64,000 nucleotides of DNA from Nodosilinea sp. WJT8-NPBG4 (GTDB lineage: Bacteria; Cyanobacteriota; Cyanobacteriia; Phormidesmidales; Phormidesmidaceae). The position numbers were made by a program, and so were the translations under genes. Positions 61 through 808 of the stretch are shown in pieces. The stretch is taken from contig JAHHHQ010000061.1 of assembly GCA_019359285.1 (NCBI GenBank), positions 1 through 64,000 of the forward strand. Reading direction: 5' to 3'. Numbering within the stretch: position 1 is the first letter of the stretch; the number at the start of each line of letters is the position of its first letter. The notes beneath the pieces were generated by a model. That model had not been told where the DNA came from and did no database searches. It saw only the letters and a program-made list of their open reading frames with translations.

Positions 61-131
61 TAGGAGGAGTAGTACGGTAAACACACTTCCCCTCTATATT
101 GTCCTAATCACGCCTTCGGCTGCAATAATAA

Positions 132-159
132 AAATCCCCTAGCTACGGCTAAGGGATTT
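132..159 (-). terminator. Rho-independent terminator after pgr5
   Basis: Twelve-base arms (132-143 and 148-159, one mismatch) close a four-base loop. Read on the minus strand the hairpin is followed by TTTTTATTATT. It lies 37 bases after the pgr5 stop codon and would end the psb34-pgr5 transcript. Confidence 0.85.
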
Positions 160-195
160 ACATATCAGCGACTTTATAAATTAAATCGATATTAA

Positions 196-393
196 CTAGG
201 CCAGAAAACCGAGTCTTTGGCCGTTGGCTTTTGCTTTGCGGATTAACGCCTGACGCTCTTTGCTGTCGATGCCAAAGCGGTTGCAGAAGTTTGTAATTGT
301 TTTGGAGTGAAGGGCGATCGCCTGACCCCGCAGCTTGTTGAATTTCGGGGTTCCCATGATATTGCGAACTACCAGAACCATCGGTGCAAACAT
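196..393 (-). CDS. pgr5: PGR5-like protein (cyclic electron flow around photosystem I)
   Basis: This 65-residue protein matches the mature part of plant PROTON GRADIENT REGULATION 5 nearly end to end. Shared features are FAP near the start, FNKLRGQAIALHS in the middle, ITNFC, and the C-terminal GQRLGFLA. The cyanobacterial homologue known in Synechocystis is ssr2016. PGR5 supports ferredoxin-dependent cyclic electron flow and protects photosystem I in strong or fluctuating light; how it acts biochemically is unsettled. It is soluble and stromal/cytoplasmic, with no transmembrane segment here. It follows psb34 on the same strand by 51 bases and precedes a strong terminator, so the two are probably one transcript. 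The ATG at 393 has a purine-rich stretch upstream. Identification is from recalled family sequence, not a search. Confidence 0.9.
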   Translation of the reverse strand: MFAPMVLVVRNIMGTPKFNKLRGQAIALHSKTITNFCNRFGIDSKERQALIRKAKANGQRLGFLA

Positions 394-444
394 AGCGCTC
401 TTTCTCCAAAGACTCTTAAAAACTGCTTGCGAAACTAAACGAAA

Positions 445-618
445 TTAGCTGACTGCCAGAGTGACTAGCATCAGACCAGTCACGAAGAGAGTGGCGATCG
501 CGGCTTGCATGGCGTAGCCTTTTTGCTGCTCAGGCGAGGGGTAGGACGCGAAATATACTTCAGGCTCTACGGCGTAGTTATTGAGAATGCCGTTGTCGAG
601 TTGGGTGGTGGTGAACAT
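445..618 (-). CDS. psb34: Psb34 / ssl1498-family light-harvesting-like protein
   Basis: A 57-residue protein with a short N-terminal part containing ILNNYAVEPEVYFASYPSPE and one C-terminal membrane helix (about residues 36-56). This is the pattern of the ssl1498 family, whose member Psb34 binds a photosystem II assembly intermediate near CP47 and competes with high-light-inducible proteins. The reading frame stays open to 693, but the ATG at 618 has GGAGG eight bases upstream and gives the family's usual length, so I start there. Three RpaB-type (HLR1) octamers lie 34-62 bases upstream. The protein would sit in the thylakoid membrane. pgr5 follows 51 bases downstream. Confidence 0.85.
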   Translation of the reverse strand: MFTTTQLDNGILNNYAVEPEVYFASYPSPEQQKGYAMQAAIATLFVTGLMLVTLAVS

Positions 619-651
619 TGCGAGGCCCTCCTGGGGTGCTGAATGTCTCTT

Positions 652-680
652 TATGTAAATTAATGTAACAGCTATGTAAC
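652..680 (-). promoter_or_regulatory. HLR1 (RpaB-binding) repeats upstream of psb34-pgr5
   Basis: Read on the minus strand, three octamers fit the HLR1 half-site (G/T)TTACA(T/A)(T/A): GTTACATA (680-673), GTTACATT (669-662) and TTTACATA (659-652). The last two are separated by exactly two bases, the spacing of the known RpaB site; the first is three bases away. The site is 34 bases from the psb34 start, overlapping the likely promoter core, a position at which RpaB usually represses in low light. RpaB binding is inferred from sequence only. Confidence 0.8.
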
Positions 681-808
681 GATATTGCAACAATTTCTTG
701 CCTTAATTTTGCTTATGCGTTAACCGCTATTGTCTGTAGCAAGTCGCAGTTGACTTCATTGGCTTGGCGGTAGCAGTGCCAAGCCAGCTAGTGCGTTTGC
801 TGGATGAG

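Follow-up and report, generated by a model that had tools for sequence, protein, structure and literature searches.

The window is the whole 64,000-nt stretch of Nodosilinea DNA that was analysed, and it begins where contig C61 of a 5.9-Mb genome begins. Right at this end, its minus strand carries a promoter with RpaB-type octamers, a psb34 gene, a pgr5 gene and a terminator. The arrangement raises the question of whether psb34 and pgr5 form one high-light unit controlled through HLR1, as an earlier note had proposed. The features are as follows, in the direction of transcription.

685–690, minus strand: putative −35 element TTGCAA, placed from aligned relatives, with a 17-nt spacer to the −10 element; only 4 of 6 letters match here
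673–680, minus strand: third RpaB-type octamer, GTTACATA, exact in sequence, with a 3-nt rather than a 2-nt spacer to the pair
662–667, minus strand: putative −10 element TACATT, inside octamer 1 of HLR1, at conserved spacing
652–669, minus strand: HLR1, the putative RpaB site, two exact octamers with a 2-nt spacer, GTTACATTAATTTACATA
627–632, minus strand: Shine-Dalgarno-like AGGAGG of psb34
445–618, minus strand: psb34 of the variant (HLR1-linked) paralogue group as placed by the tree, 57 aa (NF033486, 89.9 bits, cut-off 45)
394–444, minus strand: intergenic gap of exactly 51 nt, with a Shine-Dalgarno-like GGAGAAA at 407–401 before pgr5
196–393, minus strand: pgr5, 65 aa (NF049860, 122.6 bits, cut-off 50; match 1–65 of 65)
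122–159, minus strand: intrinsic terminator, a 12-bp stem at 159–132 followed by a T-rich tail

From these features and the comparisons below, it is likely that psb34-B, as the variant is called here, and pgr5 constitute a bicistronic high-light unit that is repressed by RpaB at HLR1 in low light. The psb34 reading frame runs from an ATG at 618–616 to a stop codon at 447–445, and pgr5 begins 51 nt later, just as the earlier note had counted. A sequence scan of this gap (394–444) found no terminator-like site. The terminator behind pgr5, described in that note as strong, pairs 12 bases ahead of its T-rich tail with a folding energy of −17.3 kcal/mol (z −4.6), and most close relatives retain the stem with changed bases. 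The locus is one promoter region, two genes and one terminator, with the shared strand, short gap, common terminator and conserved gene order of an operon.

All three octamers reported upstream of psb34 are present, the third being as exact as the two that form the pair, and many relatives have a 7/8 octamer at the position of the third. The interval 652–680 that the earlier note gave for RpaB binding is thus placed correctly. Read 5′ to 3′, HLR1 is GTTACATT-AA-TTTACATA (669–652), an exact match to KTTACAWW-N2-KTTACAWW. The window has a single match to this 18-base consensus, and 100 shuffles gave none. Across the 5.9-Mb genome, five exact sites were found, and the reversed (mirror) motif has no match. 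Two marks of the repressed class of the RpaB/HLR1 regulon, the promoter motif and a gene for RpaB, are present, the latter scoring 396.8 bits against a cut-off of 330 (NF045944). Elsewhere in this genome, another of the five exact sites (L072, C20:155199–155216) has a TTGACA upstream and lies before the gene of a photosystem II protein related to Psb35, consistent with a regulon made up of genes for PSII helpers.

To place the locus among its relatives, 80 of the 96 loci found by a GTDB-wide scan with a PGR5 alignment, nearly all of them from named cyanobacteria, were combined with loci from further genomes, giving 97 distinct pgr5 loci; these are loci and not independent events, as several share a genome. 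Among the 80 of 96 taken from the scan, the closest named loci are those of Phormidium tenue FACHB-1052, Tildeniella torsiva and Nodosilinea sp. FACHB-131, with PGR5 97–98% identical. A psb34 gene lies directly upstream of pgr5 on the same strand in about 46 of the 97 loci (43 detected by regular expression, with L084, L109 and L137 added by inspection). This survey of adjacency, which the earlier note had suggested, shows that the pairing is widespread and not local, and the order HLR1-psb34-pgr5 is seen in Nodosilineaceae, Nostocales, Pleurocapsales, Crocosphaera and others. In 5 of the 97, for example in Picosynechococcus, the upstream gene is a true Hlip with a chlorophyll a/b-binding match, and in the rest pgr5 stands alone or behind another gene (Synechocystis L095, Hydrococcus L104, Acaryochloris L090). 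HLR1 (15/16 or better) precedes 84 of the 97, regardless of whether pgr5 follows it directly or after psb34-B or an Hlip. What the loci have in common is therefore HLR1 with pgr5, and in many lineages psb34 or an Hlip has been placed between the two. The 13 loci that lack a good HLR1, most of them without psb34, count against the proposed explanation. Among 292 genomes drawn across the phylum, full-length pgr5 by the NCBIfam model is patchy (10 genomes), and a psb34 match of any kind was obtained in only 128 of the same genomes. Xenococcus has more than one pgr5 copy in a genome (L109, L122, L138, L143 and L144 in one genome), the multi-copy loci listed also including L114, L128 and L106; L109 and a Prochloron locus (L106) each hold two copies.

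The same survey bears on the possibility that the two genes are merely adjacent, HLR1 serving psb34 only while pgr5 is read from a promoter in the gap or inside psb34. Such separate control is improbable: the best HLR1 of the linked loci lies upstream of psb34 and not in the gap, and in the window the gap combines its lack of a terminator-like site with a Shine-Dalgarno-like sequence next to pgr5. It draws some support from the roughly half of loci in which pgr5 occurs without psb34, mostly with its own HLR1 promoter, and from gaps of 117–222 nt in some linked loci, the 46 linked copies mostly having 50–72 nt.

How a unit with this promoter would respond to light depends mainly on where HLR1 sits. 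A simple sigma-70 scan of the window did not list the psb34 promoter, which was found instead by aligning 89 promoters of the psb34-B group on HLR1. In 59 of the 89, a TTGACA-like hexamer with at least four matches lies exactly 17 nt upstream of TACATT, compared with 0–10 at other spacings; the mean −35 match is 4.09 of 6 at 17 nt and 2.2 or less elsewhere. Octamer-like repeats continue at 10–11-nt steps on both sides. The hexamers of the window itself are weak (8 of 12 letters in all), which counts against the proposed explanation. With transcription predicted to start near 655, the conserved −35/−10 spacing would put HLR1 at about −14 to +4, and the −10 element and predicted start would both lie inside the putative RpaB site. 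According to a review (PMC13421787), an HLR1 placed from about −38 to +23 relative to the start leads to repression, and one placed upstream, in the range −66 to −45, to activation. In hli/scp genes, HLR1 is located in the core promoter, 3–13 bp upstream of the start (PMC6331805). Since the position predicted here, over the −10 element and start, is a repressing one, RpaB is expected to repress in low light and to let go in high light, and de-repression of the psb34-pgr5 unit in high light is predicted.

The opposite mode, in which RpaB at HLR1 would stimulate the unit in low light as it does at PSI genes, is quite unlikely. RpaB does both, mainly according to site position (PMC13421787), but here the conserved core promoter runs through HLR1, outside the activating range, and Synechocystis pgr5 is induced rather than lowered by high light (up 2.90 log2 after 30 min; PMC12850537). 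The latter source also lists Synechocystis pgr5 as an RpaB target, and Acaryochloris PGR5 is among the genes higher in HL-WL (PMC11633204). Least credible of all is that another OmpR-type regulator such as RpaA binds the site or that the site is a relic: the genome encodes many OmpR-like regulators and RpaA and RpaB have targets in common in PCC 7942 (PMC13421787), but the consensus is exact, and even distant families retain the two octamers with the same spacing. Repression by RpaB at HLR1 would align the locus with hliA/scp, nblA, psbA and Synechocystis ssr2016/pgr5, with which it shares an exact HLR1 in the core promoter and, in the last case, a pgr5 that is a listed RpaB target. It differs from these genes in that pgr5 comes second, behind a psb34 paralogue, and in that its control is predicted from sequence.

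The psb34 gene of the unit belongs to a distinct paralogue group. A tree of 172 psb34 proteins separates 74 canonical (A) from 98 variant (B) rows; the alignment has only 53 columns and support for the branch between the groups is moderate (89/79), but other, independent features divide the copies in the same way. The first is HLR1 (15/16 or better, within 200 nt), which precedes none of 76 A copies and 88 of 100 B copies (43 of 45 linked to pgr5 and 45 of 55 unlinked), compared with means of 0.2 and 0 in shuffles; the minority of group B that lacks a good HLR1 counts against the proposed explanation. The second is a set of signatures, NNFA, AEPP and KRNY in A and NNYA, A-x-YP and QQ..Y in B. 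All pgr5-linked copies are in group B, and the window psb34 falls with them, not in the canonical Ssl1498/Tsl0063 group; Tsl0063, the form present in PSII structures and itself absent from the tree, has the canonical LNNFA-EPKVY signature, and its match to the window protein is weak (28.4 bits). The canonical psb34-A of this genome, which has no HLR1, is found at C61:64161–64319 (L001), 161 bases past the window end and about 64 kb from the variant. The pgr5-linked label changes about 12 times on the tree, at least 5 of them forced by well-supported branches, and the pairing has therefore been gained or lost several times. Group B also includes unlinked genes that have HLR1 and come from genomes in which no pgr5 was found, so psb34-B can do without a neighbouring pgr5. 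A third psb34 subtype (TVDDEGLINNFATEP..YPSPRQQRRY) without HLR1 was observed in other Nodosilinea genomes (L285–L290) and at L227, L237 and L238. At two loci of this subtype that were examined (L292, L293), an ApcA-like allophycocyanin gene and the gene of a 772-aa protein common to both loci lie nearby; the genes around these two copies gave no support to a far-red (FaRLiP) setting.

To our knowledge, studies of Psb34 function have dealt only with the canonical form. The statement in the earlier note that Psb34 helps PSII assembly consequently holds for the window protein by homology, as a family member (NF033486), and not as the studied paralogue. Compared with canonical Psb34 (Ssl1498 of Synechocystis, Tsl0063 of Thermosynechococcus; PDB 7nhp, 7nhq, 7dxa, 7dxh), it shares the NCBIfam family, the LNN-A-EP N-terminus and one C-terminal membrane-helix-like stretch, whereas it has the B signatures and HLR1 upstream, and many copies of its group have pgr5 downstream. 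Canonical Psb34 attaches to PSII complexes that contain CP47 by an N-terminus that it has in common with HliA/B, and it modulates the binding of Hlips (PMC9458560). The Hlip-pgr5 loci of Picosynechococcus, Zarconia and Limnothrix (L105, L139, L145) likewise combine HLR1, a small protein with a Psb34/HliA-type N-terminus and pgr5, but their first gene encodes a true Hlip with an AEKLNGRLAM chlorophyll-binding helix.

In the proposed mechanism, RpaB would occupy the octamers over the −10 region and transcription start in low or normal light and block RNA polymerase. In high light, its release would allow a transcript encoding the high-light Psb34 variant and PGR5, ending at 159–132. Because Psb34-B retains the N-terminal LNN(Y)A-EP stretch common to Psb34 and HliA/B, it probably docks on CP47-containing PSII intermediates, and it may replace or supplement canonical Psb34-A during repair while PGR5 would raise cyclic flow around PSI. 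PGR5/Ssr2016 takes part in cyclic flow in Synechocystis (PMC12850537). Recurrence of the unit in many cyanobacteria suggests that PSII repair and PSI protection are switched on together in strong light. A broader reading, to which we give an even chance, is that the two Psb34s divide labour, the A form serving PSII assembly constitutively and the B form, under RpaB control, serving in high light. The B form would share a transcript with PGR5, so that a single redox switch governs PSII repair and PSI cyclic flow; an Hlip with the same CP47-docking N-terminus could then fill the slot where psb34-B is missing. The two-gene unit of the earlier note thus stands by sequence and by comparison (HLR1 over the core promoter in 89 aligned promoters and a recurrent order), while a joint transcript, binding of RpaB and induction by high light are predictions for this organism.

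The regulator, the type of site and RpaB control of pgr5 in Synechocystis were already known; what is apparently new is that psb34-B forms a group with an HLR1 of its own and that it is paired with pgr5. In open-access literature, no report of a psb34-pgr5 operon or of a psb34 paralogue split was found, in keeping with the earlier note, which knew of no such operon, and none that joins the two genes in cyanobacteria, the one joint match concerning PetD of the cytochrome b6f complex. The arrangement is genuine and widely conserved; its parts are known, but the combination is apparently undescribed. A second Psb34 group with a different promoter, one for light stress, leads to the prediction that in high light Psb34 forms are exchanged on CP47 and compete there with Hlips. 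The mode of action of PGR5 is debated, and the recurrent link is a genetic clue to what PGR5 works alongside. The unit also offers a simple test case in which one RpaB switch would join PSII and PSI protection.

Within the genus, psb34-B adjoins pgr5 in all 15 genomes with pgr5 (one decayed, one with both genes damaged), and HLR1-type psb34-B was found in none of 12 genomes without pgr5, some of the genomes in this comparison being incomplete. This co-occurrence fits a joint function and also fits loss as one segment through physical linkage alone. Decaying units were observed among L068 and L067/L080: in one genome, pgr5 has a stop while psb34-B and a near-HLR1 are still there, and in another, a psb34-B fragment is left and HLR1 is gone. 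Finally, two strong inverted repeats (TTTTTTGGGCCCAAGCGATC...; CTATCCTTTGTGTCGCGA...TCGCGACACAAAGGATAG) are located at 810–855 and 945–990 of the window, between the psb34 promoter and a PLP-enzyme gene.
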